The position numbers were made by a program, and so were the translations under genes. From Bacteroidales bacterium (GTDB lineage Bacteria; Bacteroidota; Bacteroidia; Bacteroidales; UBA3824), in NCBI GenBank assembly GCA_016286055.1, contig JAEERW010000002.1, positions 62,001-126,000 on the forward strand: DNA of 64,000 nucleotides, given 5' to 3'. The notes under the pieces are model-generated. The model saw nothing but the letters and a program-made list of their open reading frames with translations, was not told the origin of the DNA and searched no databases. Shown one piece after another: positions 41,447-58,792 of the stretch. Within the stretch, counting starts at the first letter, position 1, and each line of letters opens with the position of its first letter.

Positions 41447-41466
41447 AACTTATGATAATTAAAATG

Positions 41467-41934: not shown

Positions 41935-41942
41935 ATTATCAA

Positions 41943-42368: not shown

Positions 42369-42431
42369 ATTAATGATGTTTATGTTATTATGTTTATGCC
42401 GTAAAGATAGCGTTTTTTTTATAACCTACTA

Positions 42432-43457
42432 CTATTTGTAAAAATTCCTCACAAAACCAAACGTGTCGCCTTTTTTGCGTATCAGTCCGTGCCATACCGC
42501 CTTCAGGAATCCTAAGCCATAGGCTGTTAATTGTACATAAACAGCAATTACCGATAGCAACCCTACTTTAAAACCGTTTTGACGGGTAGAATCCACCAAC
42601 ACTATCAATGCAAAAAGCACCAACGGCGCCACACATATCAACGGTGCTATTATATTCTTGAATATCAACGCAGTAACCAATGCCGCCAAAATGCAAAAAA
42701 CATTACCCAACAAAAACAGCGATGGAAATGTGTGTATAAGCTTCAACGACCCTTTATGCCTGAGTTTCAAATTTATGCGCGCACAGCCTGAATTGAATAT
42801 CTGCTTAAAAAACTTTCTAAAATCTGTTCTGCGCTTATGATAAACAAAGGCGTCTTTAATTAGCTTTGTTGTATAACCTTGTTCTAATATCCTGAGAGTC
42901 ATATCGATATCCTCTCCAAACCGCATATTTGAAAACCCAGAAGTGTTTTCAAACACCTTGCGCGAAAATCCCATATTAAAACTTCTCGGATGAAATTTAC
43001 CAGCCTTCTCGCTTGCTCCGCGTATGCCGCCAGTAGAGAGTATCGAGGTCATAGCATAGCTAATAGCCTTTTGCACAGGTGTAAAAGTAGGTAATGCGGC
43101 ATCAGGTCCACCGTATGCGTCAACATATTCTGTTGTAAGACTTTCGGTAACAATCTTAACATAATCGGGAGGAATAATGCAGTCGCTGTCGAAAAAAACT
43201 ATATAATCGCCATCGCTACGTTCCGCACCGTAATTACGCGTAAGTCCAGGTCCTGAATTCTGCTTAAATAAATATTTTACATCAAGCTTATTAGAATATT
43301 TTTCTACAATATCTTTCGATGGCTTATCGCTGCCGTCTTCCACTACTATCACATCAAAATTATTAGATGTTTGTTTTTCAAGACTATCTAACAATTCGTC
43401 TATCTCATCAGGACGGTTATATAGAGGTATTACTATGCTTATTTTCGAATTATCCAT
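42432..43457 (-). CDS. Family 2 glycosyltransferase
   Basis: A 341-residue protein. The GT-A domain begins at once: ISIVIPLYNRPDEIDELLDS, then FDVIVVEDGSDKPS, then YIVFFDSDCIIPPDY with the DSD metal site, and GFSNMRFGEDIDMTLRI with the ED base motif. Two or three membrane helices follow at ~245-325 (LFLLGNVFCILAALVTALIF). Likely a lipid- or cell-wall-glycan transferase. Its start shares one base with the miaA stop. Confidence 0.88.
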   Translation of the reverse strand: MDNSKISIVIPLYNRPDEIDELLDSLEKQTSNNFDVIVVEDGSDKPSKDIVEKYSNKLDVKYLFKQNSGPGLTRNYGAERSDGDYIVFFDSDCIIPPDYVKIVTESLTTEYVDAYGGPDAALPTFTPVQKAISYAMTSILSTGGIRGASEKAGKFHPRSFNMGFSRKVFENTSGFSNMRFGEDIDMTLRILEQGYTTKLIKDAFVYHKRRTDFRKFFKQIFNSGCARINLKLRHKGSLKLIHTFPSLFLLGNVFCILAALVTALIFKNIIAPLICVAPLVLFALIVLVDSTRQNGFKVGLLSVIAVYVQLTAYGLGFLKAVWHGLIRKKGDTFGFVRNFYK

Positions 43458-44362
43458 TAGCCTAAAATTTTACAATTACAATAATTGATTATATCATCAA
43501 CCTTATCTGGCTGAAACCACACAATATTGTTGTCGCCGTTGAACCACGAAATCTGTTTGCGGGCATACCGGCGTGTGTTGCGTTTGATAAGTTCTACTGC
43601 GGTGCTGAGATCGGTTTTATTGTCAAAATAATCAAACAACTCTTTATAGCCCACAGTGTTGAGCGAATTAAGATGTTTCAATGGGTATAACGAGCGCGCC
43701 TCATCAACAAGCCCCTCGCCTATCATCTTGTCAACGCGCTGATTTATACGATTGTGCAGCACCTCCCGTGGCATATTCACGCCAATTTTAATGATATTAA
43801 AACTGCGCTGTTTGGTTTTGCCAGTGCGGAATGTAGAATAAGGTTTGCCAGTTTGAATACTCACTTCCAATGCTTTGATAATACGCTTGTGATTGTTTAG
43901 GTCGCATATTTTGTAATATTCTGGGTCGAGATTCAAAAGCATCTCTTGCAATGGCGCAATTCCCTCATTGTCAAACTTTTGCCAAAGGTTATTGCGAATT
44001 TCCATATCTGGGTCGGGAATTAGGTCAATACCGTTGCACACTGCATCTACATACATCATTGACCCACCGCACATTATCACGGTGTCGAATTTAGCAAACA
44101 GAGCCTTTTCGAGAAGGTTTATGACTTCTGTTTCGTACATAAAGGCATTGTAATAATCATGTACAGAGCGAGTTTGAATAAAGTAGTGTGGCACACGAAG
44201 CAACACCTCTTTGTCGGGAACAGCAGTTCCTATACGCATCTCCTTGAAAATCTGACGGCTATCGGCAGAAATAATCTCTGTGCTGTAATGTTCGGCAAGA
44301 TTCACCGCCAAATCGGTTTTGCCGCTCGCCGTAGGACCCGTTATTATAATAAGGTGTTTCAT
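43457..44362 (-). CDS. miaA: tRNA dimethylallyltransferase MiaA
   Basis: A 301-residue enzyme that adds an isopentenyl group to A37 of tRNAs reading UNN codons. The P-loop GPTASGKTDLA is at 8-18, followed by STEIISADSRQIFKEM and VIMCGGSMMYVDAVCNG. The C-terminal tRNA-binding segment contains NTVGYKELFDYFDN and IKRNTRRYARKQISWF. Normal length. It overlaps the permease gene by 4 bases (ATGA) and shares one base with the glycosyltransferase start. Confidence 0.96.
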   Translation of the reverse strand: MKHLIIITGPTASGKTDLAVNLAEHYSTEIISADSRQIFKEMRIGTAVPDKEVLLRVPHYFIQTRSVHDYYNAFMYETEVINLLEKALFAKFDTVIMCGGSMMYVDAVCNGIDLIPDPDMEIRNNLWQKFDNEGIAPLQEMLLNLDPEYYKICDLNNHKRIIKALEVSIQTGKPYSTFRTGKTKQRSFNIIKIGVNMPREVLHNRINQRVDKMIGEGLVDEARSLYPLKHLNSLNTVGYKELFDYFDNKTDLSTAVELIKRNTRRYARKQISWFNGDNNIVWFQPDKVDDIINYCNCKILG

Positions 44363-45555
44363 TGTGATAGTTTGCGACGTAGTTTCAGCAGGTTTTTGGG
44401 TTTTCCTTGTTGCGGGTCGGGAATCGGCAATTGCACATCGTTAAGGGCATTGAGCCTCAACGAACGGTTGTGCTGTTTGGCAACAAACTCTGTGTAATAG
44501 GTTTTTACCATACAAGTAAACGGCAGAGCGGCAAGCAACCCAAGGAACCCGAGCAATTTGCCCCAAATCGACAGCGAGAGCAGTATCATCGCCGGATTAA
44601 GTCCTGTATTTTTACCCATAATCCGGGGCGTAATTATCAAATCCTGAAGAATTTGCACCACTACAAACACAGCCGCTGTCATAGCTATCACTGCCCACAC
44701 CGAAGATCCTGTTTCCAACGAACGGATAATGGCGAGGCAGAGGGCTGGCAAAAAACCGAGTATCTGCATATATGGTATAAGGTTTAGAAATCCGATCAAA
44801 AGTCCGAGCATAAGACCCATAGGCAACCCTATAATCGAAAAGCCCGCACAATAAAGTATAGTTACAATGCCAACCACGCACAACTGTCCGCGAAAATAAC
44901 GGTGCATCTCTATCTCAAATCTCGCTGCGAACTTAAACACCGATCCGCGATAACGGTGAGGAATTAAGCGGTGCCAGCCCTGCTTCAAATTGTCGTAGTC
45001 GATCATTATAAAAATTAGGTACAGAATAACAATTGCGAATCCGAGCGAACTTGCAATCACATTGAAGGTTTTGGAAAAAAACGCCTGAATTTCAGGCACT
45101 ATCATAGCCGCAATCTTTTCTACTGCCGACGAAACATTGTCAGAAGATAGAATATCTTCCAACTCCACATTTTCGGAAAAACGGTCGAGAATATTGGTTA
45201 CAAATTCTGGCATCACGGTAAGTTCGTTTTGCCAGTTGTTTTGAATAGCAGTATCCTTAATCAGCTGATAAAGATGCACGCTCTCGTCGTAAATTAAAGG
45301 CGTAAAAACCAACGCCAAAAGAGTAAACAATGCCGCCACCGAAATCAAAGTCACCACCACCGAAATAGCTCGATTTTTAAGAAACCTTTGAAAAAAACGC
45401 ACCACTGGATTAAGCAGATAGGCAAATAAAAACGCCACTGCAAAAGGCAAAAGCACGTTTCGCAGGTAGTAGACCAAAAAGAGCATCGCTCCTATGGCTG
45501 CGATTTTCAATGCCTTCGACACCGCCGATGAAAATGTTATCTTGCTCTCTTCCAT
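44359..45555 (-). CDS. AI-2E family (PerM-like) membrane permease
   Basis: A 398-residue polytopic protein. Hydrophobic helices lie near 15-75 (FLVYYLRNVLLPFAVAFLFAYLLNPV) and form several more spans in the second half (IGLPMGLMLGLLIGFLNLIPYMQILGFLP; GLNPAMILLSLSIWGKLLGFLG). The conserved NLIPY and PxI-G-x-x-x-x-L motifs are those of the UPF0118/AI-2E exporter family. The substrate is uncertain; family members are linked to AI-2 export or Na+/H+ exchange. Located 3 bases after the LuxC-like gene and overlapping miaA. Confidence 0.88.
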   Translation of the reverse strand: MEESKITFSSAVSKALKIAAIGAMLFLVYYLRNVLLPFAVAFLFAYLLNPVVRFFQRFLKNRAISVVVTLISVAALFTLLALVFTPLIYDESVHLYQLIKDTAIQNNWQNELTVMPEFVTNILDRFSENVELEDILSSDNVSSAVEKIAAMIVPEIQAFFSKTFNVIASSLGFAIVILYLIFIMIDYDNLKQGWHRLIPHRYRGSVFKFAARFEIEMHRYFRGQLCVVGIVTILYCAGFSIIGLPMGLMLGLLIGFLNLIPYMQILGFLPALCLAIIRSLETGSSVWAVIAMTAAVFVVVQILQDLIITPRIMGKNTGLNPAMILLSLSIWGKLLGFLGLLAALPFTCMVKTYYTEFVAKQHNRSLRLNALNDVQLPIPDPQQGKPKNLLKLRRKLSQ

Positions 45556-45558
45556 AGT

Positions 45559-46614
45559 CTAACGGTTCAAATTTTTTAAAAACTGAATAGTGTCAACACC
45601 GTCGGCAAAATCGTCGATGGCGGGATGTTGCGATTGTCCAAACGTAACAGTGGCAACGCCTTGTAAATCAACATTTGACACCACGCATTGCAGATTGTCG
45701 GCATTTTGCACGAGCAATTGGGCAAGAGCATCAGCGTTTTGATACTCCTCACAGAAAACCACCCCCACAGGCGACGACAGTCCAGTATCCTTTTTCAAAA
45801 TCAAAAATCCATTGTCCAAAATATCCGCGCCGCTCATCAGGTACACAGCCTTATTGTAGGTGTAATTATCTGAATATTTGGCATTTGACATAACGTCGCT
45901 TTTATGGTAAATTCCCTTAAAAAACATATCGTAATTATACCCCTTGGGAACATAAATCTTTGCCACACTGCGACAGCCGAGTCCGTAATAAGCAAAAATA
46001 TCATCGGCGAGCAAGCGGTAATCATCTTCCAACTCGTTGCCCAAAAGCACCGCCACCGAACTGCGGCTACGCCTTATAATATTAGGATACTTAGAAAAAT
46101 AGTAGTCGAAATACCGTGCCGAATTGTTGCTACCAGTAGCAATAATAGCGTCAAAGGGGATACGCTCACCATCCTCCTCCTCTATCCTATCGCCAAGTTC
46201 TGGTGAAATCATTTTGATAATCTCCAAAACAGAATGAGGAAGCAGGCGATCTTTCGACGATGGCTTCAATACCAAACGGCAACCCGCCATCAGCACGCAC
46301 AAAATGTCGTGAAAGCAAACTAACGGAATGTTGCCTGCAGCAATCACCTTCACTTTTTTGTTGCACTTAGCAATATCGTTGAGCTGATACTTGGCAGAAA
46401 AATTATTTAGAGAATCTTCGGAAAGCATTTCGGCGAGCGAACGGAATTGCATTTTTACAAACTCTGGGGTAAACCAGCCATTATAATTGTGAACGATGTC
46501 TACGCACTGAGACAACGTCCTAGCCTGCTGTTCACAGCCGTCGCAGCTATTAAAGTTGCCGTCAGCAGCAGCTTTCAATACCTTTCCTAATATAATAAAA
46601 GCGTTAGAATACAT
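45559..46614 (-). CDS. Acyl-CoA reductase, LuxC-like
   Basis: A 351-residue protein of the LuxC/aldehyde-dehydrogenase fold, which in luminous bacteria makes fatty aldehydes. Recognisable parts are VKVIAAGNIPLVCFHDILCVLMAG, KPSSKDRLLPHSVLEII and AIIATGSNNSARYFDYYF (cofactor site). A later GCRSVAKIYVPKG carries a candidate catalytic Cys. No luxD, luxE or luciferase genes are here. Such proteins are common in non-luminous Bacteroidota, and their role there is unclear. First gene of a four-gene operon. Confidence 0.8.
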   Translation of the reverse strand: MYSNAFIILGKVLKAAADGNFNSCDGCEQQARTLSQCVDIVHNYNGWFTPEFVKMQFRSLAEMLSEDSLNNFSAKYQLNDIAKCNKKVKVIAAGNIPLVCFHDILCVLMAGCRLVLKPSSKDRLLPHSVLEIIKMISPELGDRIEEEDGERIPFDAIIATGSNNSARYFDYYFSKYPNIIRRSRSSVAVLLGNELEDDYRLLADDIFAYYGLGCRSVAKIYVPKGYNYDMFFKGIYHKSDVMSNAKYSDNYTYNKAVYLMSGADILDNGFLILKKDTGLSSPVGVVFCEEYQNADALAQLLVQNADNLQCVVSNVDLQGVATVTFGQSQHPAIDDFADGVDTIQFLKNLNR

Positions 46615-46730
46615 TGTTTTGTTAACATTACGCCATATAGGCGCCCTATATATATTTCAAAGTGTAAAAATATATGAAATCTCTCAATAAAGCAACTTCT
46701 TTATGGTTGATTCAAAAATAAATATTTTTA

Positions 46731-46776
46731 ACGTAAATTTAACAAAAAACCGGTGACAAAATTTAGCGATTTACGT
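46731..46776. promoter_or_regulatory. Inverted repeat ACGTAAAT ... ATTTACGT upstream of the peptide genes
   Basis: Eight-base arms at 46731-46738 and 46769-46776, 30 bases apart, in the 240-bp gap before the first Gly-Gly peptide gene. They could be two half-sites for a regulator of peptide production. A small GGCTCTGAGCC palindrome follows near 46795. I see nothing else definite in this gap. Confidence 0.35.
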
Positions 46777-46854
46777 AATACATAGCACATTAAAGGCTCT
46801 GAGCCTCAATGATACAAATAAACTGAGTTACAAACAATTTTAAACACAAACACC

Positions 46855-47022
46855 ATGGAACCGAAAATGCAGGAGCAACTTACGGAGTTGACGGAAAAGG
46901 AACTTTTGGAAACAGATGGTGGGTTTTTCAAGTTTGGCTTCGGCCTCAGACTTATTATTGCTTTCGCTAGACCAGGCGGCCCCGGCGACAAAGAACCCAA
47001 CCCTGGCTTCCCCAGGTTATAA
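46855..47022 (+). CDS. Gly-Gly leader peptide 1 (outlying member, long core)
   Basis: A 55-residue precursor. The 23-residue leader ends LTELTEKELLETDGG, with Leu at -15, -12 and -7 and Thr at -4 relative to the expected cut. The 32-residue core differs from all the others: it begins FFKFGFGLRLIIAF, then becomes Pro/Gly-rich and ends NPGFPRL. It has a net positive charge of about +3. It has its own terminator (47096-47139), so it can be expressed apart from the main array. Likely exported by the C39 transporter at 50936. Confidence 0.7.
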   Translation: MEPKMQEQLTELTEKELLETDGGFFKFGFGLRLIIAFARPGGPGDKEPNPGFPRL

Positions 47023-47095
47023 CATTTTTGCACTAACAACGCTATAAATCTATAACCGAACAACAGTATTAAAGACATTATTTAACTCTATCCGG

Positions 47096-47139
47096 CTGCC
47101 CGAAGCAAATCAAACGATTGCTTCGGGCAGTTGTTTTTT
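47096..47139 (+). terminator. Terminator after peptide gene 1
   Basis: A perfect 13-bp stem CTGCCCGAAGCAA/TTGCTTCGGGCAG with a 9-base loop, followed by TTGTTTTTT. Confidence 0.92.
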
Positions 47140-47231
47140 GATTCGCACTATAAAACAGATGTTTAGGAGACTTCTTAAATTATTAATATTTATTTAACTA
47201 TTAATAAACATTAAATTAACCATACTGTGCT

Positions 47232-47239
47232 TATCTTTA
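47232..47239 (+). promoter_or_regulatory. Promoter-like element of the peptide array (TATCTTTA)
   Basis: Differs from TAnnTTTG only in the last base; the same TATCTTTA form precedes the antitoxin gene and the gene at 42368. It lies 60 bases upstream of peptide gene 2, after the terminator of gene 1. Confidence 0.4.
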
Positions 47240-47299
47240 CAGCAAGTTAAAATTCACTTTTAACGAAATACTTTTTCTTAACATTTAAACTTAATCACC

Positions 47300-47410
47300 A
47301 TGGAAATACAAGAACTCGAAGAACTCACCGAACAAGAAATGGTTGAAGTAGAAGGCGGTGTAAGTCCGAAATTAATCTCTGAAAAAATGAGATCACAAAT
47401 CCGCGGTTAA
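47300..47410 (+). CDS. Gly-Gly leader peptide 2
   Basis: A 36-residue precursor. The 20-residue acidic leader, starting MEIQELEELT and ending VEVEGG, precedes a 16-residue core VSPKLISEKMRSQIRG (about +3). Leader positions -15, -12, -7 and -4 are Leu, Leu, Met and Val. First gene of the main array of eight. The start is preceded by an A-rich AAACTTAAT stretch that recurs in front of several other members and probably serves translation initiation. Confidence 0.85.
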   Translation: MEIQELEELTEQEMVEVEGGVSPKLISEKMRSQIRG

Positions 47411-47429
47411 ATTTAAAAACTTCATCGAT

Positions 47430-47534
47430 ATGGAAATACAAGAACTCGAAGAACTCACCGAAACCGAAATGGTTGAAATTGATGGTGGAGTACGCTATAG
47501 TAAAAAATCTAAAGACCAAAAAGAAATTAACTAA
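47430..47534 (+). CDS. Gly-Gly leader peptide 3
   Basis: A 34-residue precursor. The 20-residue leader ends MVEIDGG, with Leu -15, Leu -12, Met -7 and Ile -4. The 14-residue core is VRYSKKSKDQKEIN, polar and about +3. It lies 19 bases after peptide gene 2. The 94 bases to the next member hold an ATATTGTTTAACTTTA segment repeated before gene 6, a sign of duplication. Confidence 0.85.
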   Translation: MEIQELEELTETEMVEIDGGVRYSKKSKDQKEIN

Positions 47535-47628
47535 AAATTATGCGATGTGTTGTTTTCCACACCTACAAAAGGCAGACAATACCAACGCCTAATTTATAAT
47601 ATTGTTTAACTTTAAAAACTTAATTATC

Positions 47629-47736
47629 ATGGAAATACAAGAACTCGAAGAACTCACCGAAACCGAAATGGTAGAAATTGATGGTGGAGGTGTTATCAAA
47701 GCAGCAAAAAAAGCAGAGAAAAAAGCTAAAAAATAA
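47629..47736 (+). CDS. Gly-Gly leader peptide 4 (Lys/Ala-rich core)
   Basis: A 35-residue precursor. The leader of 20 residues is identical to that of peptide 3. The 15-residue core GVIKAAKKAEKKAKK has seven Lys and one Glu (about +6) and could form an amphipathic helix. AAAACTTAAT precedes the start by a few bases. The next gene starts 6 bases after its stop. Confidence 0.85.
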   Translation: MEIQELEELTETEMVEIDGGGVIKAAKKAEKKAKK

Positions 47737-47742
47737 ATCATC

Positions 47743-47832
47743 ATGGAAATACAAGAACTCACAGAAGAAGAAATGGTAGAGATTGATGGTGGCTTAAGTC
47801 AGAATTTAGTCTCAGGAAAAAAGAGAAAATAA
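47743..47832 (+). CDS. Gly-Gly leader peptide 5
   Basis: A 29-residue precursor, the shortest. The 17-residue leader MEIQELTEEEMVEIDGG lacks the three-residue EEL insertion of peptides 2-4 but keeps hydrophobic residues at -15, -12, -7 and -4. The core has 12 residues, LSQNLVSGKKRK (+4). Confidence 0.82.
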   Translation: MEIQELTEEEMVEIDGGLSQNLVSGKKRK

Positions 47833-47867
47833 TCATATATTGTTTAACTTTATAATTTTAAATCAAC

Positions 47868-47966
47868 ATGGAACTTCAAGAACTCACAGAACAAGAAATG
47901 GTAGAAGTTGAAGGTGGAGCAGCCATCAGCAAAGTAGGAAACGTTACAGTTAAATTTGTTAAGTAA
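47868..47966 (+). CDS. Gly-Gly leader peptide 6
   Basis: A 32-residue precursor. The 17-residue leader MELQELTEQEMVEVEGG precedes a 15-residue core AAISKVGNVTVKFVK (+3). The core is closely related to that of peptide 8: the same AAISKVGN start and KFVK end, with VTV replaced by TCP. It is preceded by the same ATATTGTTTAACTTTA segment as peptide 4. Confidence 0.85.
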   Translation: MELQELTEQEMVEVEGGAAISKVGNVTVKFVK

Positions 47967-47994
47967 TTTACTAACTATCAAAAACTTAATTAAA

Positions 47995-48108
47995 ATGGAA
48001 ATACAAGAACTCGAAGAACTTACCGCTATGGAAATGGTGGAAATCGAGGGTGGCGGTATCAGCAAAAAAGCAAAACCCACTCTTCCGCCTCAGTACAAAA
48101 CCAGCTAA
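47995..48108 (+). CDS. Gly-Gly leader peptide 7 (Pro-containing core)
   Basis: A 37-residue precursor. The 20-residue leader contains LTAMEMVEIEGG. The 17-residue core GISKKAKPTLPPQYKTS (+4) has three Pro, unlike the other array members. Preceded by AAAACTTAAT. Confidence 0.85.
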   Translation: MEIQELEELTAMEMVEIEGGGISKKAKPTLPPQYKTS

Positions 48109-48119
48109 ATCTCATCACT

Positions 48120-48230
48120 ATGACAAAAGAATTTGAAATCATAGAACTCACAGAACAAGAAATGGTAGAGGTAGATGGCGGCGCTGCCATTAGCAAAGTA
48201 GGCAACACTTGCCCAAAATTTGTTAAATAA
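48120..48230 (+). CDS. Gly-Gly leader peptide 8 (single Cys in core)
   Basis: A 36-residue precursor with a variant 21-residue leader that begins MTKEFEIIELTEQEM and ends VDGG. The 15-residue core AAISKVGNTCPKFVK is a sister of peptide 6. It holds the only Cys in any of the nine cores, so a disulfide-linked dimer is possible but an internal disulfide is not. It starts 11 bases after peptide 7. Confidence 0.83.
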   Translation: MTKEFEIIELTEQEMVEVDGGAAISKVGNTCPKFVK

Positions 48231-48263
48231 CTTAATTTATTAACTTTTAAAAACATCATTAAA

Positions 48264-48362
48264 ATGGAACTTCAAGAACTCACAGAACAAGAAATGGTTG
48301 AAATTGAAGGTGGTGCATCTGGTTCAAAAGGTGGCTTGAAAAAATCAGGTGGAATCCTTTAA
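48264..48362 (+). CDS. Gly-Gly leader peptide 9 (Gly/Ser-rich core)
   Basis: A 32-residue precursor. The 17-residue leader is that of peptide 6 with one Val to Ile change. The 15-residue core ASGSKGGLKKSGGIL (+3) is rich in Gly and Ser and contains two further internal Gly-Gly pairs. Last member; a terminator follows after 32 bases. Confidence 0.83.
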   Translation: MELQELTEQEMVEIEGGASGSKGGLKKSGGIL

Positions 48363-48394
48363 GAATGTATTAAACATTCCCACACCATCCAACT

Positions 48395-48441
48395 CAACAG
48401 CCCAAAACATATCGAAAGATTGTTTTAGGCTGTTGTTTTTT
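48395..48441 (+). terminator. Terminator after the peptide array
   Basis: A 15-bp stem CAACAGCCCAAAACA/TGTTTTAGGCTGTTG with one mismatch, followed by seven T. It separates the peptide genes from the export genes. Confidence 0.9.
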
Positions 48442-48455
48442 TATCAGATTTTTAA

Positions 48456-48463
48456 TAACTTTG
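48456..48463 (+). promoter_or_regulatory. Promoter -7 element of the export operon (TAACTTTG)
   Basis: Exact TAnnTTTG match between the array terminator and the TolC-like gene, 29 bases before its start. Confidence 0.6.
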
Positions 48464-48492
48464 TGATGGAAATTTAACGAATATTCCTTCAA

Positions 48493-49794
48493 GTGAAATT
48501 ATTTTGGCTAATATTAATATCATTTGGTTGCATTCTAAGCGCTCATGCTCAATCATTTACCTTAAATGATTGCCTCGACACCGCCATAGCCCACAGCCCC
48601 GCTCTTACCGCTGAGGAATTAAACATCGAATCGACAGAGGTGAATCTAAAAGCCGAGCGGCATACCTATTTGCCTACCGCTGTGGCAACTATAAACAACG
48701 GAATATCAGGAGGTTTTCAACAAACTTTCAACGAAACAATGTCGGGCGAATATAGTAGCAATAAAAGTTATACCAACAGCGCTACGGTTGATGTAAGCGT
48801 TACTCTATGGAATGCAGGAGCAAGGCGAACTCTTATTAAACACAAGCAATTGCTGAAAAATGCCGCTGAAAAGCAACGTCAATATCGCGAAATTGAGGTG
48901 AAAACCAATGTGATAGAAAAATTCTTTACCCTCGCAATGGCGCAAAAACGTCTTGAAATTGCCGTGGAAAACTGTGCTATGCAAGATTCTAATGTGATAA
49001 CTGCACAAAAACTATATAACCTCGGTCACCGCTCGCAACGTGATGTAATGGACGCCAAAACCAACCTTGCTCAAGACGTTATGGAGCGCAAAAAAGAGCA
49101 AGACAATGTGGTAATCAGCGAGTTGCAACTGCGCATTGCTATCAATCACGCCGATTCTATTATTATTGATATTCAAGATATTGAAAACGAACGAATTATA
49201 CCGCCGTTTGAGGATTTTTACAACAAGGCTTTGGAAATTAATCCCGAAATTGCGACTTACAAAACTCAAATAGAGGCTGCCGAAATTGAGAAAGAATATT
49301 ACAAACGCCTGCAATATCCATCGTTAACGCTTAATTATGAGGCTGGTACGCAAGGGCAAAAATTCTTTCACGAGGAAAACAAAGATTTTGGCAAACAATG
49401 GAAAGATAATGCATACCAAACAATATATCTTTCGCTCAAAGTGCCGATTTTCAGTCAGTTAAACAACAAAGACAATATTGCCAAAAGCGAAATAGAAATC
49501 CGTCGCCGTCGCAACGACCTCGACCAAATACTTCTCGACCTCAGAGGCGAACTTCGCAATGTTTGGCTTGGCGTAGAACAAAGTCGCTCCACAGCCGATT
49601 TAGCAGCGCAAACCGCCGAACTTGCCCGTCAGCAGTACGAATTTGCACAAAAAGATTTCAAACTTGGAAATATTGCCAGTTACGAATTGTATGTATATAA
49701 AAACAAATTCGTATCTTCGCAGTTGCAAGCCGTGGGTGCCGAATACGAGTTTCTGTACCGACTTGCAGTATTAAAACTATTTACAGAACAATAA
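48493..49794 (+). CDS. TolC-family outer-membrane efflux protein of the peptide exporter
   Basis: A 433-residue protein that starts with GTG; the only nearby ATG upstream (48466) runs into a stop at once. Signal peptide 1-19 (LSAHAQ). Two long helical halves follow the TolC plan: FTLNDCLDTAIAHSPALTAEE at the start of the first and FYNKALEINPEIATYKTQIEAAE in the second, with strand regions between. It forms the outer-membrane channel through which the trimmed peptides would leave. Its stop overlaps the start of the HlyD-like gene by one base. Confidence 0.88.
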   Translation: MKLFWLILISFGCILSAHAQSFTLNDCLDTAIAHSPALTAEELNIESTEVNLKAERHTYLPTAVATINNGISGGFQQTFNETMSGEYSSNKSYTNSATVDVSVTLWNAGARRTLIKHKQLLKNAAEKQRQYREIEVKTNVIEKFFTLAMAQKRLEIAVENCAMQDSNVITAQKLYNLGHRSQRDVMDAKTNLAQDVMERKKEQDNVVISELQLRIAINHADSIIIDIQDIENERIIPPFEDFYNKALEINPEIATYKTQIEAAEIEKEYYKRLQYPSLTLNYEAGTQGQKFFHEENKDFGKQWKDNAYQTIYLSLKVPIFSQLNNKDNIAKSEIEIRRRRNDLDQILLDLRGELRNVWLGVEQSRSTADLAAQTAELARQQYEFAQKDFKLGNIASYELYVYKNKFVSSQLQAVGAEYEFLYRLAVLKLFTEQ

Positions 49795-50939
49795 TGCAAC
49801 TACCCGAAGACATAGAAAACACCATCGACGTGCTTTATTCGCGTTATCGTCAGCGTACCAATTGGATATACATTCTTTTGGTGTCGGCGGTGATTATTGC
49901 TGTGGCGTTGTTGCCTATTATCAAAGTTGACGTTACAAGTCAGAGCCGTGGCATTATCCGTTCCAAAAACGACAACCTCAAAATTGTACCAATCGTCAGC
50001 GGACGTGTCAGGAGCGTAAACATCACCAACAATATGCCCGTAACCATCGGCGACACACTTTTAATAATAGAATCGGATAACATCAAGGTGCAACTCGAAG
50101 CGCAAAAGAATTTAAAATCAGACCTTTCGGACCGCATTGCCGATTTAAAGATACTAACCTCGGGAGCAAACAATCCGATACTCCGCACACCGCTCTATAT
50201 TCAAGAACTTGCTGATTATAAGGAACGTACCAAAGGCGAAAGAGCTAAGGCAGAGCAAGCCGAGCGCGACTATCAGCGGTTAAAAGAGTCGTACAACAGC
50301 GGACTTGCCTCCAAAGCCGACTACGAACAGGCAGAAGACCGTTGGCGCAATGCCAAAAACTCGCTCGAAACCGCATCTCAACAGCAGTTGGCCACTTGGC
50401 AAAACACCAAGAAACAACTTGAACAGCAACTTATTACCTGCAACGGAGAAATCAACCGCATAGAATCAGAACTTAGCAACTACATTGTTACCGCACCCGC
50501 ATCGGGCACGCTCATTACGCAAACGCAAATTCAACCAAACTCGTATATCTATACAGGTCAGGAACTTGCATCAATTTCGCCCGACGAGAGCCTGATAGCC
50601 GAATGTTACGTTTCGCCCGCCGACATAGGTTTTTTAGAAAAAGATCAAGAGGTGAAACTATCTTACGATGCATTCGACTACAATCAGTGGGGTCTCGGAC
50701 TTGCCGCAGTTGAGGACATCGACAAAAACATCAGTATCGAAAGCACTTCGTCGTATTTTGTAGTGCGCTGCCGCCTCATAGGCAACACCCTCAGCCTCAA
50801 AAACGGCTACACAGTGGAAATCAAAAAGGGTATGACCCTCACGGCACGTTTCCTCATCACACGACGCACATTGTGGCAATTGCTATTCGACAAAGTTGAC
50901 GACTGGTTTAATCCCAAACAAATACCGCTACAAAAATGA
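49794..50939 (+). CDS. HlyD-family periplasmic adaptor of the peptide exporter
   Basis: A 381-residue membrane-fusion protein. A membrane helix lies at ~22-42 (NWIYILLVSAVIIAVALLPI). A biotinyl-lipoyl-like half follows (IVPIVSGRVRSVNITNNMPV), then a long coiled-coil hairpin at ~95-215 (EQAERDYQRLKESYNSGLAS), the second lipoyl half (ITQTQIQPNSYIYTGQELAS) and a beta-barrel domain. It bridges the ABC transporter and the TolC-like channel. It overlaps the transporter start by 4 bases (ATGA), so the three genes are tightly coupled. Confidence 0.9.
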   Translation: MQLPEDIENTIDVLYSRYRQRTNWIYILLVSAVIIAVALLPIIKVDVTSQSRGIIRSKNDNLKIVPIVSGRVRSVNITNNMPVTIGDTLLIIESDNIKVQLEAQKNLKSDLSDRIADLKILTSGANNPILRTPLYIQELADYKERTKGERAKAEQAERDYQRLKESYNSGLASKADYEQAEDRWRNAKNSLETASQQQLATWQNTKKQLEQQLITCNGEINRIESELSNYIVTAPASGTLITQTQIQPNSYIYTGQELASISPDESLIAECYVSPADIGFLEKDQEVKLSYDAFDYNQWGLGLAAVEDIDKNISIESTSSYFVVRCRLIGNTLSLKNGYTVEIKKGMTLTARFLITRRTLWQLLFDKVDDWFNPKQIPLQK

Positions 50940-53089
50940 ACAAGAACGTACTTCAACACGATTATTACGACTGCGGAGCGGCGTGCCTCAAATCAATAGC
51001 GGCGCACTACAAACTTGATTTGTCGATAGCCCGCATACGTCAGTACGCCTGCACCGATATGCGCGGAACTAATGTTTTGGGAATGATAAAAGCGGCTGGA
51101 AAAATTGGATTCACCGCCAAGGGCGTAAAAGGTACAAAAGCCGCACTGCCAAACCTGCCGTTCCCCACTATCGCACACGTTGTCAGACAAATAGACGATG
51201 CCGTATTGTATCATTACGTGGTAATTTACGGCTACAAAAAAGGTGTGCTCAAAATAATGGACCCAGCCCTCGGACGCACCGAAAACGTTAAGGAAGAGGA
51301 CTTTTTGAAAGAGTGGTCGGGCGTGCTGATTCTTTTGCGTCCTTCGGAAAATTTCGAAACAGGCAAAAAACGTATTTCGGTGTTCACCCACCTCAAAAAC
51401 CTTGTGATTCCTCATCGCAAAGTATTGATACAGGCTATTATAGGAGCAATCTGCTTTACTGCGCTCGGACTTTCGATGTCGATATATATCGAAAAAATCA
51501 CCGACTATGTGCTTGTAGGCGGCAACACCAACTTACTCAACCTATTGGGACTCATAATGTTAGTATTGCTGATTTTGCAGTTTGCAATAGGCATTTTCCA
51601 AAATATGATGGCGCTGCGCACAGGTCAGATGATGGATGCGCAACTTATAATGGGTTATTACAAACACCTTCTGCAACTGCCGCAGCAGTTTTTCGATACA
51701 ATGCGTGTGGGCGAGATTATTTCAAGGGTAAACGATGCGTTTAATATCAGATATTTTATCAATTCTACCTCTATTAAAATGATAGTCAATGGATTGATAG
51801 TGATATTATCGTTTGGTATGATGTTTTTTTACCATTGGCGACTTGCGCTCATAATGCTTGCGGTTATACCGCTGTATGTTATAATATATTATATCACCGA
51901 CAAAGTAAACAAACGAGTGGAACGCAAGGTGATGGAAGATACCGCCTCGCTCGAAAGCCAGTTGGTGGAGTCGCTCAATGCTGTGCGAACCATAAAGCAG
52001 TACGGCATAGAGGATTACACCAACAACAAGACCGAAAACCGCTTTGTTAAGATGATGTACACCACTTACGGGTCGTCAAAAAATGTGGTCTTCTCAGAAA
52101 ACGCATCTATGTTCGTGTCGCGGCTGTTTACCATAATACTCTTGTGGACAGGTAGTTACTTTGTGCTCGGCGGCGACATTACGGCTGGCGAACTGATGTC
52201 GTTTTATGCTCTTGCAGGATATTTCACAGGGCCTATTTCCGAACTGATTAGTTCCAACAAGTCGTTCCGTGAGGCAGAAATCGCTGCCGACCGTCTGTTT
52301 GAAATCATCGACCTTGAACGCGAGGAAGCCACCGACAAGATTCCCCTCACCCGCGAAAACATTGGCGACATAGTCTTCTCCGACGTGTCGTTCACCTACG
52401 GCACACGCAAAAAGATTTTTGAAAAACTCAACCTCCGCATTGCCAAAGGCAGCACCACCGCCATCGTGGGCGAAAGCGGTTGCGGCAAAACCACCATCGC
52501 CAACCTTATCCAAAACCTCTATCCCCTCAACGAAGGTTCTATCTTTATCGGCGACCTCAAACTCAGCCACCTCTCCAACACCAGCATACGCAGTCTTATT
52601 TCCACTGTACCTCAGCAGATTACATTATTCTCGGGAACAATACTATCAAACATCGCCATTGGCGAATACTCACCCGATATTCCTAAAATTCAAGAAATTA
52701 TCAACCTTCTTGGACTCAACGACTTTGTGGAATCGCTGCCCGAAGGCTTGGAGACACTCGTGGGTGAAAACGGCTCAAAACTATCTGGTGGCGAAAAACA
52801 GCGTCTTGCCATAGCCCGAGCCATCTATAAAGACCCTGAAATATATATTTTCGACGAAGCCTCGTCGGCGCTCGACTCTATCGCCGAAAAATACGTTCTC
52901 AATGCCGTGCAAACCCTTCGTGCCAAAGGCAAAACCATCATCACCATAGCCCATCGCCTCAGCACCATCAAAAATTCCGACACCATTATAGTAATGTCGA
53001 AAGGCAAAATAATGGAACAAGGTGATTTTCAAACACTAATCAACAACAAAGGCGAGTTTTATAAGTTGTGGGAAAATCAGGTATTGTAG
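50936..53089 (+). CDS. Peptidase-containing (C39) ABC transporter
   Basis: A 717-residue fusion of protease, membrane domain and ATPase. The C39 peptidase (1-~135) has oxyanion Gln7, catalytic Cys13 in YYDCGAACL, His93 in YHYVVIYGY and Asp109 in IMDPALG, so all catalytic residues are present. The membrane domain with about six helices spans ~160-440. The ATPase has Walker A GESGCGKT near 512-519, signature LSGGEKQR near 615 and Walker [13 protein letters not shown] near 636. It should cut leaders after Gly-Gly and export the cores. It is the only such transporter in the window and directly follows the nine peptide genes. Confidence 0.95.
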
Positions 53090-53138
53090 ATTATCGCATT
53101 TTTTTTTCGCAACTGCGCACTATTCCCAAAAAAAACTA

Positions 53139-53146
53139 TACCTTTG
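53139..53146 (+). promoter_or_regulatory. Promoter -7 element of aspS (TACCTTTG)
   Basis: Exact TAnnTTTG match 36 bases before the aspS start. It excludes the longer frame that would begin at 53068, inside the transporter gene. Confidence 0.6.
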
Positions 53147-53181
53147 CATTTTACAAAAGAAAGTTTTTAAACAATTTAGAA

Positions 53182-54936
53182 ATGTACAGGACACACGATT
53201 GCGGACAACTGCGTATTGCAGACGTAGATAAAACCGTAACCCTCAGCGGATGGGTGCAGAGGGTTAGAAATCTTGGAGGTATGACATTTGTTGACCTCCG
53301 CGACAGATACGGTATCACCCAATTAGTTTTTAATATGGAAACCAACGCCGAACTTTGCGAACGCGCAAGAAAACTCGGCCGCGAATTTGTTATCCAAGCC
53401 ATCGGAACGGTAACTGAGCGAACAAGCAAAAACAAAGACCTGCCTACTGGCGATATAGAAATTACTGTAAACCAATTAAATATACTCAACAAGTCTGATG
53501 TTCCGCCTTTCACTATTGAAGACAACACCGACGGCGGCGAAGACCTTTTGATGAAATACCGCTACCTCGACATCCGCCGCAAACCCATCATTTCGGGATT
53601 GCTGATGCGCCACAAAATGAGCCTCGAAGTAAGAAAATACCTCGACGCACAAGGATTTATGGAGGTGGAAACGCCGGTGCTCATCAATTCAAGCCCTGAG
53701 GGCGCAAGAGACTATGTAGTGCCTTCTCGACTTCATCACGGTGAGTTTTACGCACTTCCGCAGAGTCCACAGCAGTACAAACAGTTATTGATGGTGGCAG
53801 GTGTGGACAAATATTACCAGATAGCAAAATGTTTTCGCGACGAAGACCTCCGTGCCGACCGTCAGCCCGAATTTACCCAGATCGACTGCGAGATGAGTTT
53901 TGTTGAGCAAGAAGATATTTTGCAAATATTTGAAGGTCTTGCTAAACACCTTTTCAAAGAGGTTAAGGGCATAGATATGAATTATCAGTTTCCCCGTATG
54001 GTTTGGCAAGACGCTATGGAACAGTACGGTAGCGACAAGCCCGACATCCGTTTTGGAATGAAAATCCACGACGTTACCGCCGAGGTTAAAGGTCATGGGT
54101 TCAAAGTTTTTGACGATGCCGAATATGTATGCGCCATTGCAGTTGGCGGATGTGCCAACTATTCGCGTAAACAAACCGACGAACTTACAGAATGGGTAAA
54201 ACGTCCTCAGGTTGGTGCCAAAGGTCTTGTTTTCATCAAATACAATGAAGACGGCACAGTAAAATCATCGGTTGACAAATTTTACACTCCCGAGCAACTC
54301 ACCGAGATTGCCAAAAAAGCCGGAGCAGGCACAGGCGACCTCGTTCTTATACTCTGTGGCAAAAAGATGCCTATCCTCAACGCAATGGGAACTCTCCGTA
54401 TTGAAATGGGCAACCGCCTCGGACTCAGAGACAAAAACATTTTCGCACCCCTTTGGGTTATCGACTTCCCTCTATTTGAATGGGACGACGAAACTCAGCG
54501 TTTCTACGCTATGCACCACCCCTTCACCTCGCCCAAGAAAGAGGACATCGCGCTTTTGGATACCGACCCCGGAAAAGTTCGCGCCAACGCATACGACCTC
54601 GTTATCAACGGCACAGAGGTTGGTGGCGGCTCAATCCGTATACACGACTCGCAGTTGCAAGTTAAGATGTTCAACCTTCTCGGCTTCACCCAAGAACGCG
54701 CACAGAGCAACTTCGGCTGCCTAATCAACGCATTCAAATTTGGTGCGCCTCCTCACGGCGGTCTCGCCTTCGGATTAGACCGTTGGGTAGCAATCATGTA
54801 CGGCTGCGACTCTATCAAAGACGTTATCGCATTCCCCAAAAACAATGCGGCACGCGACATCATGATGGGTGCTCCGTCGCTCATTGCTCCCGAACAGTTA
54901 GACGAACTTTCACTCGCTATAACCCCTGAAAAATAA
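53182..54936 (+). CDS. aspS: Aspartyl-tRNA synthetase
   Basis: A 584-residue class II synthetase. The N-terminal OB-fold anticodon-binding domain begins [20 protein letters not shown] with [16 protein letters not shown]. The class II core follows with motif 2 [20 protein letters not shown], the bacterial GAD insertion (about 290-420), and motif 3 [13 protein letters not shown] near the end. Normal bacterial length. The promoter at 53139 and the alignment of the N-terminus fix the start. The next gene starts 1 base after the stop. Confidence 0.97.
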
Positions 54937-54937
54937 T

Positions 54938-55279
54938 ATGGCAAGCAACGAACAAACAACAAAAGCACTACTCACAGCAATGGCTCAGGCCTGCGAAAAC
55001 ATCATTGCAGTTGCCTCGCCGTTTGCTGCGGCGTGCGATTTTGCCAACCAAGAAAACGCGGCAGACAATATCTACATGAACCTCGTGATTATCAGCGAAC
55101 TCTACGCCAAAAACGATGACGATACCAAGGCTCGTCTCGCCACTGTTAATTGGACAGAAATCAAGCGAAATATAGACATCGTTACCGCAGACTACAAAAA
55201 CGCCGACCAGAAGGTTTTGTTCTATGTTTCAAAATCGCTGATACCAAGGCTAAAAGACCGTATCGACGAACTAATCTAA
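54938..55279 (+). CDS. Hypothetical helical protein downstream of aspS
   Basis: A 113-residue soluble protein, probably all-helical, with no signal peptide. Features: an Ala-rich first half (LLTAMAQACENIIAVASPFAAAC) and a Lys/Arg-rich last part ending LIPRLKDRIDELI. No family recognised. Its position one base after aspS and 12 bases before the metallo-hydrolase gene makes it a genuine operon member. Confidence 0.65.
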   Translation: MASNEQTTKALLTAMAQACENIIAVASPFAAACDFANQENAADNIYMNLVIISELYAKNDDDTKARLATVNWTEIKRNIDIVTADYKNADQKVLFYVSKSLIPRLKDRIDELI

Positions 55280-55291
55280 CCCACCCCCAAA

Positions 55292-55957
55292 ATGCAGATA
55301 GAAGTTTTCAGATTCAACGACATTGCTGTTAACACTTATGTGCTGTCTGACAACGGCAAATGCGCTATTGTAGACCCTGGTTGCCATACCGAAAAAGAGC
55401 AGCAGACTCTCTGCAATCATATCGACTCAAAAGGTTACCAGCCGCAGTTTATTATCAACACGCACTGCCACTGCGACCATATTGTTGGTGTACAGTTTGT
55501 TAAGGAGCATTACAATATTCCGTTTATTGCAAATCCTGCCGATCAATATTGGCTTGATAATGCCGCTGAAACAGGAATCCGTTGGGGATGGTACGATGTG
55601 GTAGCACCCGTAATCGACAAACCTTCTAACGATGGCGACACTTTTAAATTGGGTAACGCCGAACTCAAAGTGATGCACACGCCGGGACACTCACGCGGTC
55701 AGCAAGCAATTTATTCCGAAAAAGATAAATTTGTGATAGTTGGCGACACCATTTTCAAGGGCACAATTGGACGCACCGACCTTGCCGATGGAAATCTCGA
55801 CGACCTAATGGACAGCATCAAAAACAAGATAATCCCCCTTGGTGGCGATTATACTATTTTCCCAGGACATGGGCCTATTACCAAAATAAGCATAGAGGTA
55901 AGAGAAAATCCGTTTCTGAGCTTCTTTGGAGAAGATTTGGTGATGGATAATATGTAA
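55292..55957 (+). CDS. Metallo-beta-lactamase-fold hydrolase (glyoxalase II-like)
   Basis: A 221-residue hydrolase. The metal-binding motif THCHCDHIVG is the classical HxHxDH. Further ligands are in HTPGHSRGQQAIY, VIVGDTIFKGTIGRTDL and FPGHGP, all in proper order for two-metal hydrolases. It is shorter than true glyoxalase II, which has a C-terminal helical domain, so substrate assignment to S-lactoylglutathione would be unsafe. Third gene of the aspS operon. A GCGTTG/CAACGC hairpin without U-tract lies 20 bases after it. Confidence 0.88.
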   Translation: MQIEVFRFNDIAVNTYVLSDNGKCAIVDPGCHTEKEQQTLCNHIDSKGYQPQFIINTHCHCDHIVGVQFVKEHYNIPFIANPADQYWLDNAAETGIRWGWYDVVAPVIDKPSNDGDTFKLGNAELKVMHTPGHSRGQQAIYSEKDKFVIVGDTIFKGTIGRTDLADGNLDDLMDSIKNKIIPLGGDYTIFPGHGPITKISIEVRENPFLSFFGEDLVMDNM

Positions 55958-55977
55958 AAAATTGCTATTAAAGGGAA

Positions 55978-55994
55978 GCGTTGACACGCAACGC
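55978..55994. repeat. Small palindrome GCGTTG-ACACG-CAACGC
   Basis: A perfect 6-bp stem at the junction of two convergent genes, within a GGAAGCG...CGCCCCTAC context. It lacks a T-run on either strand, so it is not a clear terminator; it resembles dispersed palindromic repeats. Confidence 0.4.
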
Positions 55995-55996
55995 CC

Positions 55997-57253
55997 CTAC
56001 TCACCATAAATCAATGTTATATTTCCTTCGCTGGTGTAATACTCTCCGTTTACGAATGTGTAGGCGGCTTTGTAGACGTATACTCCGGCTGAGAGTTTGC
56101 CTCCGTTGTAATAGCCGTTCCATCCAAACGAAGGATTATTGCTCGAGAATACCTCCTTGCCAGCCTTGCTGTATATCCTAAGGCTGTAACGGTCAATCAT
56201 ATTAATGTCGCCTTTGGGCAAAAATGGAGCAAATTTTGGTTGCCCTCCACCAAAGCCGTCGGTAGCACCAGATACCGAGGCGTATAATGCGTTGGGGAAC
56301 GATATAGAGTACTCAGGCACAGTAACTTCGATAGATTCGTTGATAGTGTCGGCACAAAACTGATTGCTAACAATTAAGCTTAGAGTAAAGTTACCTGCAC
56401 TTTTGTAAGTATGTGCAGCCTTGGTAGATACGCTTAAAGCATCGTCACCGAAAAGCCATTTTATGTGCGAAGCGTCTTGTACATTGCGAGCCTCCACAAT
56501 CATAGGCGAATTTACACGCGCCTTAGTGTGGGCAATATCCGCCTTGGGCATAGGATTGATGGTTACAGTTTGAGCCGAAACCTTTGATTTTGTGCCTTTT
56601 ACAGTTTTTAGAGTAACGTAATAAGTACCTGCTGCGCGGTATGAGGCAGTGGCATTGTAATCGTAAGATGTAGAGCCGTTGCCAAAGTTCCAAACGCAAT
56701 AGTCAACGTTTTTAGAACGATTTACAAACCTTACAGTGCTTGGCGAACAAGCGTCAGGTATTTCGGCTACAAAATCGGCAGAAAAATCCAAATCAACCTT
56801 GGGTTCAGAATTATCTTCCGCCAACTGAGATTCGGCGATATATTGAACATTAACTTCGGTATCGTAGCAAGTTTCAGTATTCGGCTGTGCAAAATTATTA
56901 TTGTCAATTACCTGAATTCTATTATTTTCGGAAGTCGACGACGAACCATTGCCACGTTGAACGGGTATATCCTTTATAATCACCTTTCGTTGCGATGCCG
57001 AAATGGTGTTTGCACTCTCTTGGATGCTGCTGATAGTGATAGGCTCAGTGTTGCGGTCGGCAATGCCAAAATACAATGCCGTTGACAACACAGCTATTGC
57101 AGCTGCGGTATAATATATGTTCAATCTTTTGGGATAGAACTTAAAAAAACTTTTGAACGCCACCTCGCGGCTGATATTGCTCCACGCATCTTCGGGCGGG
57201 GCTGATTCAAAGTTTTCAAATGCGTTTTTAAATAAATCTTCGGGACTATTCAT
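55997..57253 (-). CDS. Membrane-anchored protein with PKD domains and gliding-type C-terminal domain, coded with an ECF sigma factor
   Basis: A 418-residue protein. Residues 1-43 are a cytoplasmic segment (SPEDLFKNAFENFESAPPEDAW), of the kind seen at the start of Bacteroidota anti-sigma-like proteins. One membrane helix lies at ~47-66 (IYYTAAAIAVLSTALYFG). Two PKD-like Ig modules follow at ~155-320 (VWNFGNGSTSYDYNATASYRAAGTYYVTL; IKWLFGDDALSV). Residues ~330-418 match the gliding-motility-associated (type B) C-terminal domain: LRIYSKAGKEVF, WNGYYNGGKLSAGVYVYKA, GNITLIYGE. There is no cleavable signal peptide. It overlaps the sigma gene by 8 bases. Confidence 0.8.
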   Translation of the reverse strand: MNSPEDLFKNAFENFESAPPEDAWSNISREVAFKSFFKFYPKRLNIYYTAAAIAVLSTALYFGIADRNTEPITISSIQESANTISASQRKVIIKDIPVQRGNGSSSTSENNRIQVIDNNNFAQPNTETCYDTEVNVQYIAESQLAEDNSEPKVDLDFSADFVAEIPDACSPSTVRFVNRSKNVDYCVWNFGNGSTSYDYNATASYRAAGTYYVTLKTVKGTKSKVSAQTVTINPMPKADIAHTKARVNSPMIVEARNVQDASHIKWLFGDDALSVSTKAAHTYKSAGNFTLSLIVSNQFCADTINESIEVTVPEYSISFPNALYASVSGATDGFGGGQPKFAPFLPKGDINMIDRYSLRIYSKAGKEVFSSNNPSFGWNGYYNGGKLSAGVYVYKAAYTFVNGEYYTSEGNITLIYGE

Positions 57254-57797: not shown

Positions 57798-57820
57798 AAC
57801 GTTGTCTTAGTTTAAGACCA

Positions 57821-57828
57821 CAAAATTA
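57821..57828 (-). promoter_or_regulatory. Promoter -7 element of the ECF sigma operon (TAATTTTG)
   Basis: Exact TAnnTTTG match on the complement, 24 bases upstream of the sigma-factor start. Confidence 0.55.
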
Positions 57829-57895
57829 ATGAATTGGTTGCAGAGGTGGAGGAAAAAGTTAAAAAAAACTATCAAGCAGAAGCCAAATCCTCTAA

Positions 57896-58723: not shown

Positions 58724-58737
58724 CTACAATATAATAA

Positions 58738-58770: not shown

Positions 58771-58792
58771 GATGGTTTACAATATTTTACAA

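Follow-up and report, generated by a model that had tools for sequence, protein, structure and literature searches.

The locus described here lies at positions 46855–53089 of a 64,000-nucleotide stretch of contig JAEERW010000002.1 (assembly GCA_016286055.1) of a Bacteroidales bacterium; this whole stretch, referred to below as the window, is part of a contig (C35) in a 36-contig genome of 4.18 Mb. Nine plus-strand open reading frames (ORFs) for peptides of 29–55 amino acids (aa), each with a double-glycine (Gly-Gly) leader, span 46855–48362 and precede genes for TolC, HlyD and an ATP-binding cassette (ABC) exporter with a C39 peptidase domain, i.e., a peptidase-containing ABC transporter (PCAT). 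The first ORF, pep1, stands apart from the eight that follow (a1–a8), whose short cationic cores appear to be variable cargo. The host genus, of the order Bacteroidales, comes mainly from ruminant stomachs, and the nearest named transporters belong to Bacteroidales metagenome-assembled genomes of yak rumen, reticulum and omasum, goat abomasum, and horse faeces. Below, Gxxx denotes genomes of the genus (G000 being the window's own) and Lxxx denotes extracted loci.

Described systems with Gly-Gly leaders

Class II Gly-Gly bacteriocins and their C39 exporters resemble the locus in leader, in PCAT, in variable cargo and in the class II-like genes found at its sister loci, but they differ in that the cores of the locus have only 9–17 aa without a hydrophobic segment and that no immunity or two-component genes were recognised beside the array. 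Variable cargo is familiar from the organisation of the pneumococcal blp locus. Streptococcal Gly-Gly peptides have short cationic cores, and we know of no streptococcal system with the TolC/HlyD arrangement. CSP, BIP, BriC and VP1 are, like the products expected here, Gly-Gly peptides exported by PCATs, in their case of the ComAB/BlpAB type, although CSP and BIP differ from the array in having known receptors (PMC7595303).

Arrays as such are not novel. Dense Gly-Gly precursor arrays with C39/HlyD genes, in one to sixteen copies, have been described in cyanobacteria (PMC3140520), and 30 substrates on one system are mentioned for Prochlorococcus (in PMC6363468). Like the window locus, these combine many Gly-Gly precursors, a conserved leader and diverse cores with one C39/HlyD exporter; the cyanobacterial clusters differ in their precursors of 28–164 aa and in often carrying modification enzymes (PMC3140520), none of which was recognised at the window locus. 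In Neisseria, the cationic Gly-Gly peptides termed Naps include NapB, with a core of 16 aa, but these are three peptides rather than an array and are accompanied by an immunity-like NapI and a putative regulator, NapR (PMC11798529). Because these three papers describe comparable arrays and cores, the statement of an earlier, sequence-only reading of the window that the system could not be matched to a described one was too strong. A literature search that mostly lacked subscription journals turned up no account of an array of this kind in Bacteroidota. Gly-Gly arrays and single 16-aa cores were known; what is new is the variant seen here, in which a single exporter goes with eight different short and seemingly unmodified cores, and in which cassettes appear to recombine and transfer.

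Within the Bacteroidales, Gly-Gly motifs with PCATs occur across clusters for ribosomally synthesized and post-translationally modified peptides (RiPPs) (PMC10352776). The bacteroidetocins share with the locus the order, the Gly-Gly leader, the PCAT and an apparent lack of an immunity protein, but their own cores are 42–48 aa long and contain two or four cysteines, and they come with a five-helix protein and in most cases a thiol oxidoreductase (PMC6671954). The window locus is unlike them: the 11 distinct short cores of window and G015 contain a single cysteine between them, and the locus has a TolC/HlyD pair; neither a 42–48-aa cysteine core nor the transmembrane protein or thiol oxidoreductase was found among its cores and scanned neighbours (the Pfam scan covered 14 window proteins, the other window ORFs being viewed as their first 50 residues only). 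Other reports of related interest include the Hungate1000 bacteriocins (PMC13289728) and the bacteriocin-type signal proteins of Treponema denticola, which are secreted and for which bactericidal activity was undetected (PMC11879956).

The precursors and their exporter

The nine Gly-Gly ORFs are all where the sequence-only reading had placed them, and they are not a product of chance. Within 46601–48490, a generic leader pattern matched nine plus-strand ORFs and no minus-strand ORF, against a mean of 0.006 and a maximum of one in 1000 first-order Markov sequences of the same dinucleotide make-up; over the entire window, the counts were nine and one, respectively. The features of the locus are as follows, all on the plus strand.

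46855..47022, plus: pep1, conserved partner gene; 23-aa Gly-Gly leader and 32-aa core FFKFGFGLRLIIAFARPGGPGDKEPNPGFPRL
47096..47138, plus: terminator-like hairpin and T run after pep1; 13 perfect pairs, 47096–47108 with 47118–47130
47300..47410, plus: a1, short-core Gly-Gly precursor; core VSPKLISEKMRSQIRG
47430..47534, plus: a2; core VRYSKKSKDQKEIN
47629..47736, plus: a3; core GVIKAAKKAEKKAKK
47743..47832, plus: a4; core LSQNLVSGKKRK
47868..47966, plus: a5; core AAISKVGNVTVKFVK
47995..48108, plus: a6; core GISKKAKPTLPPQYKTS
48120..48230, plus: a7, paralogue of a5; core AAISKVGNTCPKFVK
48264..48362, plus: a8; core ASGSKGGLKKSGGIL
48395..48442, plus: terminator-like hairpin with T run at the end of the array
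48433..48463, plus: match to a Bacteroidales-type promoter, TTG...TAACTTTG, before tolC
48493..49794, plus: TolC-like outer-membrane channel, GTG start (PF02321, 2.9e-39)
49794..50939, plus: HlyD-like membrane-fusion protein (PF13437, 1.2e-12)
50936..53089, plus: ABC exporter with C39 peptidase (PCAT); no other C39 match in the genome

For a3 and a6, the ATG codons at 47629 and 47995 were taken as starts, whereas the ORF listing had upstream TTG codons; the GTG start of tolC is an ATG in the relatives L019 and L020. Successive array genes are separated by 19, 94, 6, 35, 28, 11 and 33 bases.

The leaders of a1–a8 have net charges of −6 to −8, while their cores, of 12, 14, 15, 15, 15, 15, 16 and 17 aa, carry +3 to +6; the earlier remark that the cores are unusually short is supported for these eight. 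Across 12 short-core leaders (eight from the window and four from G015), position −4 is I or V, −7 is M, −12 is L and −15 is I or L, bearing out the hydrophobic positions previously noted in the array. In the leader of pep1, by reading of the sequence, positions −15, −12 and −7 are L and position −4 is T; the pep1 core is hydrophobic at first and then Gly/Pro-rich. In searches of all nine precursors against NCBIfam, only a1 exceeded a cut-off (TIGR03949, 22.8 bits versus 21.5), through residues 7–23, which are nearly all leader. None of six precursors searched in Pfam reached the PF10439 cut-off, and no class II bacteriocin family matched any of the nine across both leader and core.

The exporter genes follow the array directly, and the presence of Q7, C13, H93 and D109 in the C39-ABC protein, also noted earlier, was confirmed. 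Among proteins with solved structures, PCAT and ComA chains match its C39 domain (best E 2.7e-30), and in the phmmer alignment to one such transporter, 4ry2, C13, H93 and D109 pair with Cys, His and Asp. In LahT150, leader positions −4, −7 and −12 occupy a hydrophobic groove, and T at −4, as in pep1, is tolerated (PMC6363468). Two marks of PCAT systems are thus found together: Gly-Gly leaders with hydrophobic −4, −7 and −12 (in the 12 short-core leaders) and an adjoining ABC protein with an intact C39 Cys/His/Asp triad. Since the leaders fit the rules for LahT150 and ComA and the catalytic residues are kept, cleavage and export of the precursors by the neighbouring transporter are very likely. 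An acidic Gly-Gly leader and a basic core would be made as one precursor, nine times over; the C39 domain would bind each leader through −12, −7 and −4 and cut after Gly-Gly, and the freed core would leave through ABC-HlyD-TolC. This route is established for the transporter class and would extend to the window locus by analogy.

A conserved pep1 and a variable array

The sequence-only reading had counted the nine genes as one array, a view rejected here because a strong hairpin and T run already close off pep1, whose core belongs to a different family and whose distribution is independent. Homologues of pep1 occur in G015, G012 (contigs C72 and C137) and G017, and G009 has a similar gene, recognised by its leader, with a core that is likewise hydrophobic and then Pro-rich. 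In G017 (L090), pep1 is the sole Gly-Gly gene recognised from a luxC-like gene to tolC, the remaining ORFs of that interval having at most 39 codons. Between G000 and G015, the pep1 core shows too small a number of changes for a verdict on selection (2.3 synonymous on 23.2 sites and 3.7 non-synonymous on 72.8), the non-synonymous ones sitting in two codons near the cut site. The gene pep1 is a separate conserved unit, and the eight short-core genes are variable, interchangeable cargo.

Of the 17 other genus members, 6 have transporter orthologues (76–99% identity). Short-core arrays were found in 3 of 18 genomes, with eight members in the window, seven in G015 (contig C229) and eight in G012 (C72). 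The exact degenerate leader pattern occurs in 4 of the 18 genomes; the fourth, G008, has one match, around which no Gly-Gly ORF was recognised (L092). In G015, array and transporter lie on separate contigs; on C72, near-identical to the G015 array contig, the array is continuous with tolC and most of hlyD. The listed contamination of G012 is 8%, and its contig C137 carries a second version of the locus, which lacks the array but has pep1 together with a zincin gene of the DUF3267 family (1.6e-19). The cargo is readable neither in G005, where the contig ends in hlyD, nor in G009, where it begins about 180 bases before tolC. The transporter is missing from 11 genomes of the genus; in ten of these the luxC-like gene and aspS are on different contigs, and no luxC-like gene was found in the eleventh, G011.

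The sister loci carry other genes before tolC. In G004 there are a single complete Gly-Gly gene of class II-like type and a similar ORF truncated by the contig end, while downstream of the array in G015 and G012 C72 there is an AAA_14/DUF4143 ATPase gene followed by a gene for a hydrophobic Gly-Gly peptide. Class II-like Gly-Gly genes with hydrophobic or glycine-rich cores adjoin zincin-like genes in both L019 and L088, and three different HExxH genes precede tolC in all: the DUF3267 gene (L020:4276–4956), a HEIMH gene in G004 whose product exceeds no Pfam family cut-off (L019:349–1125), and a HELTH gene (PF04450, 2.2e-7) read after the array in G015 (L088:4580–5380). Because a DUF3267 protein is reported to remove the leader of TMcin, a membrane-made RiPP (preprint PMC13252029), the zincin-like genes before tolC may be candidates for maturation or immunity. 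The earlier observation that no maturase, immunity gene or sensor is visible therefore holds for the 14 scanned window proteins and not for the relatives, three of whose loci carry zincin-like genes. The ATPase gene (L088:2990–4177), between the array and the class II-like Gly-Gly gene, is possibly an insertion.

Evidence for recombination, transfer and selection

Window and G015 together have 11 distinct short cores, a6 and b6 (one residue apart) being counted once. Relative to the window, the 5′ region of a1 runs into the a3 gene in G015, with the a1 and a2 cores gone, while in G012 C72 the 5′ region of a2 and the first part of its leader are joined to the a3 gene, with the a2 core gone. Conversely, the window is without the cores LSFKAHGQVPPPPPP and GGFRPKKQK, which are flanked by near-identical leaders in G015 and G012 C72. 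Such differences, deletions ending at repeated leaders, are what recombination between 5′ regions and leaders would produce; which of the array states is the older is a matter of inference.

Identity varies strongly along the locus. Compared with G015 and G012 C72, the window is 84–85% identical in the luxC-like gene, 95–97.5% from before pep1 to before a1, and 80–84% in tolC (80–81% over long stretches). Within the array, a1 is 100% identical to its counterpart in G012 C72; the 426 bases of 47629–48054, from a3 to the a6 leader, show no difference to G015 and one to G012 C72; and the stretch beyond 48054 to the a7 leader is 96–97% identical to both. The window's tolC is 94–95% identical to those of G004 and G012 C137, its hlyD is 92–94% identical to G015/G012 C72, 93% to G004 and 82% to G012 C137, and its ABC gene is 94.8%, 86.0% and 83.2% identical to G015, G004 and G012 C137, respectively. 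Between species whose luxC-like and tolC sequences agree at 80–84% of positions, no more than one difference in 426 bases points to cassettes that recombine and move, and the locus, including its export genes, is best read as a mosaic whose array tract moved recently. Mis-assembly behind the shared tract keeps some small probability, reduced by the presence of the tract in two separate genome records, G015 and G012, perhaps of one population. In the scheme that we favour, pep1 would be the standing substrate of the exporter, the eight short-core genes would form a cassette array whose set of cores changes by gain, loss and exchange through 5′-region/leader recombination, and the array would pass between related species.

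Purifying constraint on the leaders is indicated by a pN/pS of 0.25 over all pairs of 12 leaders (the pairs not being independent). Among the cores, the one related pair within the window, a5 and a7, shows 5.8 changes on 10.3 synonymous sites and 6.2 on 34.7 non-synonymous sites, amino-acid change being confined to three neighbouring codons, and a stretch shared by a6 and b7, picked by eye, has four synonymous and two non-synonymous changes. Although it comes from two pairs only, this core signal suggests more than pure noise. Comparison of non-synonymous with synonymous change, proposed earlier as a test of the frames, did not refute them, and the Gly-Gly genes are real and under constraint.

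Distribution

A profile of the leaders (A2) was searched against 393 genomes of the order (E ≤ 1e-5) and 395 of the class (E ≤ 1e-4), and no other array was found in either set. Two of the 393 matched, namely the window's own genome and G009, through its pep1-like gene, and one of the 395, again the window's own genome; since G012 and G015 are absent from these matches, they evidently lie outside both samples. The leader pattern had no matches in viral contigs, and the array DNA had none among plasmid or phage records.

C39 matches at E ≤ 1e-20 were present in 158 of the 393 order genomes. Among the matches listed, 80 neighbourhoods, taken roughly by E-value, were surveyed for Gly-Gly clusters; the survey omits a good number of matches, many of them near contig starts. 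With a strict pattern, the largest same-strand cluster had zero, one or two genes in 47, 29 and 4 loci, and with a looser one, it had zero, one, two, three or four genes in 23, 48, 7, 1 and 1 loci, whereas the window has nine by either pattern. These sizes are lower bounds, as both patterns miss non-canonical leaders. The nearest transporters outside the genus are in L023 (57% identity), the short L024 (51%) and L025 (46%); upstream of hlyD, no array was recognised in the first two, and L025 has two GG-type ORFs, seen by eye, with cores over 35 aa.

Two other arrangements were seen near C39 genes. L105:10537–11458 has four tandem Gly-Gly genes with near-identical 36–38-aa cores. Single Gly-Gly precursors in four of the 80 surveyed loci, L155:5037–5165, L159:4937–5056, L168:10683–10835 and L177:8593–8724, have strand-like cores of 15–24 residues that share Asp-Gly, e.g., GRWVVVDGELVFVNN, and are possibly another short-core family.

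Possible functions

The released cocktail of 12–17-residue cationic peptides would most likely serve in competition with close relatives, as an unmodified multi-peptide bacteriocin or microcin-like weapon. Taken as a whole, the reading of the locus as a PCAT-type peptide-secretion system with swappable cargo and such a competitive role has, in our judgement, an even chance of being right. The class II-like Gly-Gly genes beside zincin-like genes in L019 and L088 are the content expected of a bacteriocin locus. The reading as a dedicated secretion system is also favoured by the position of the genome's sole C39 match beside the precursors and by the array profile, which found no further leader of the array type in the genome. 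A more far-reaching proposal is that of a cassette system making combinatorial cocktails of short linear unmodified peptides, with one exporter, pep1 and a reshuffled library of 9–17-residue cores exchanged between rumen Bacteroidales, each lineage secreting its own combination; we regard this as rather unlikely in its full form. None of the modification enzymes looked for (lanthipeptide, prochlorosin, radical S-adenosylmethionine, YcaO or graspetide) was present in the 14 scanned window proteins, the rest of the genome not having been searched for them.

A number of points speak against the competitive role. The cores are shorter and less hydrophobic than those of any unmodified bacteriocin known to us. 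Their positive charge exceeds what the intergenic DNA of the locus would give (0 of 4000), but relative to their own base composition it is unremarkable (11 cores, three of them from G015; P = 0.29), making charge a weak sign of selection. The array is present in only three genomes, two of which may not be independent, given that G012 C72 and G015 C229 are 98.8–99.3% identical over most of their shared stretch. The absence of further leaders in the genome leans on the single array profile, because a TIGR01847 search recovered one of the nine known precursors, below cut-off, and is thus too weak to exclude other leaders. No immunity candidate was recognised beside the array at 46615–48492, nor beside pep1 in G017; a missing immunity gene is not decisive in Bacteroidales, since bacteroidetocin producers inhibit themselves (PMC6671954). 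Finally, the antimicrobial activity of the neisserial Naps, the 16-aa member included, was undetectable (PMC11798529).

The main rival of a competitive role is multi-peptide signalling, in which pheromone-like cores would act on a receptor whose gene lies elsewhere, and pep1 or the array members would serve as strain-specific words. Competence and bacteriocin-inducing pheromones are similar to the cores in length and charge; signalling also requires no immunity gene, and pep1 is conserved and can be the sole Gly-Gly gene before tolC, as in G017. Pneumococcal Gly-Gly peptides with unknown receptors, VP1 and BriC, offer a parallel (PMC7595303). Eight freely gained and lost cores per genome would nevertheless be unusual for a pheromone matched to a receptor, and the Pfam scan of 14 window proteins gave no sensor kinase or response regulator, although an unlinked receptor is possible. 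Overall, we consider signalling unlikely, at somewhat above one chance in five.

Still less probable is another secreted job, such as self-lysis or programmed death, action on rumen protozoa or the host, or scavenging of metals or nutrients. The Naps provide a precedent, being cationic Gly-Gly peptides with cores of 36, 16 and 31 aa, a role in autolysis and no detected antimicrobial activity (PMC11798529), but no napI-like or napR-like gene was recognised beside the array. Least probable of all is that the array acts through its leaders, the cores being by-products and the precursors decoys or regulators of the C39 transporter or decaying remains of longer bacteriocin genes: the leaders are indeed far better conserved than the cores, and the core charge equals that given by A-rich core DNA, but the a5/a7 and a6/b7 cores keep amino acids despite several synonymous changes, the array genes are tightly packed, and all 12 short-core genes compared (eight from the window and four from G015) are open from their ATG.

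If the cores are secreted, whether for competition or otherwise, the locus would provide a small natural library of unmodified 9–17-residue peptides, served by one tolerant C39 exporter in an order that is abundant in the gut, and it would show a Gram-negative bacterium diversifying secreted peptides without modification enzymes. The array peptides are short enough for direct synthesis and assay.

Putative regulatory signals and other observations

The hairpin after pep1 has a folding energy of −29.4 kcal/mol (z −7.5) and that closing the array −19.9 kcal/mol (z −7.0), with none of 200 shuffles equally stable in either case, and an element similar to the latter sits directly after pep1 in G012 C137. 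A terminator pattern scan was uninformative (two sites versus 1.4 in shuffles), returning the pep1 hairpin only as an overlapping weaker stem and the array-closing hairpin not at all, and a generic promoter scan was equally so (four sigma-70-like sites versus 6.5 in shuffles). Rfam gave nothing at gathering score in 40000–60000.

The Bacteroidales-type promoter consensus has one match in 46600–48500, where about 0.1 would be expected, and it lies just before tolC. TAnnTTTG alone also occurs just upstream of tolC in L088, L019 and L090, while in L020 a match that includes the TTG precedes the DUF3267 gene instead of tolC. Upstream of pep1, the stretch ATAAACTGAGTTACAAAC is common to G000, G012 C137 and G017, and no promoter was recognised in it. 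Elsewhere in the window, at 36556–38844, a TonB-dependent receptor-like gene appears in the form of two successive ORFs of 216 and 544 aa, the first of which has carboxypeptidase-regulatory-like and plug domains.

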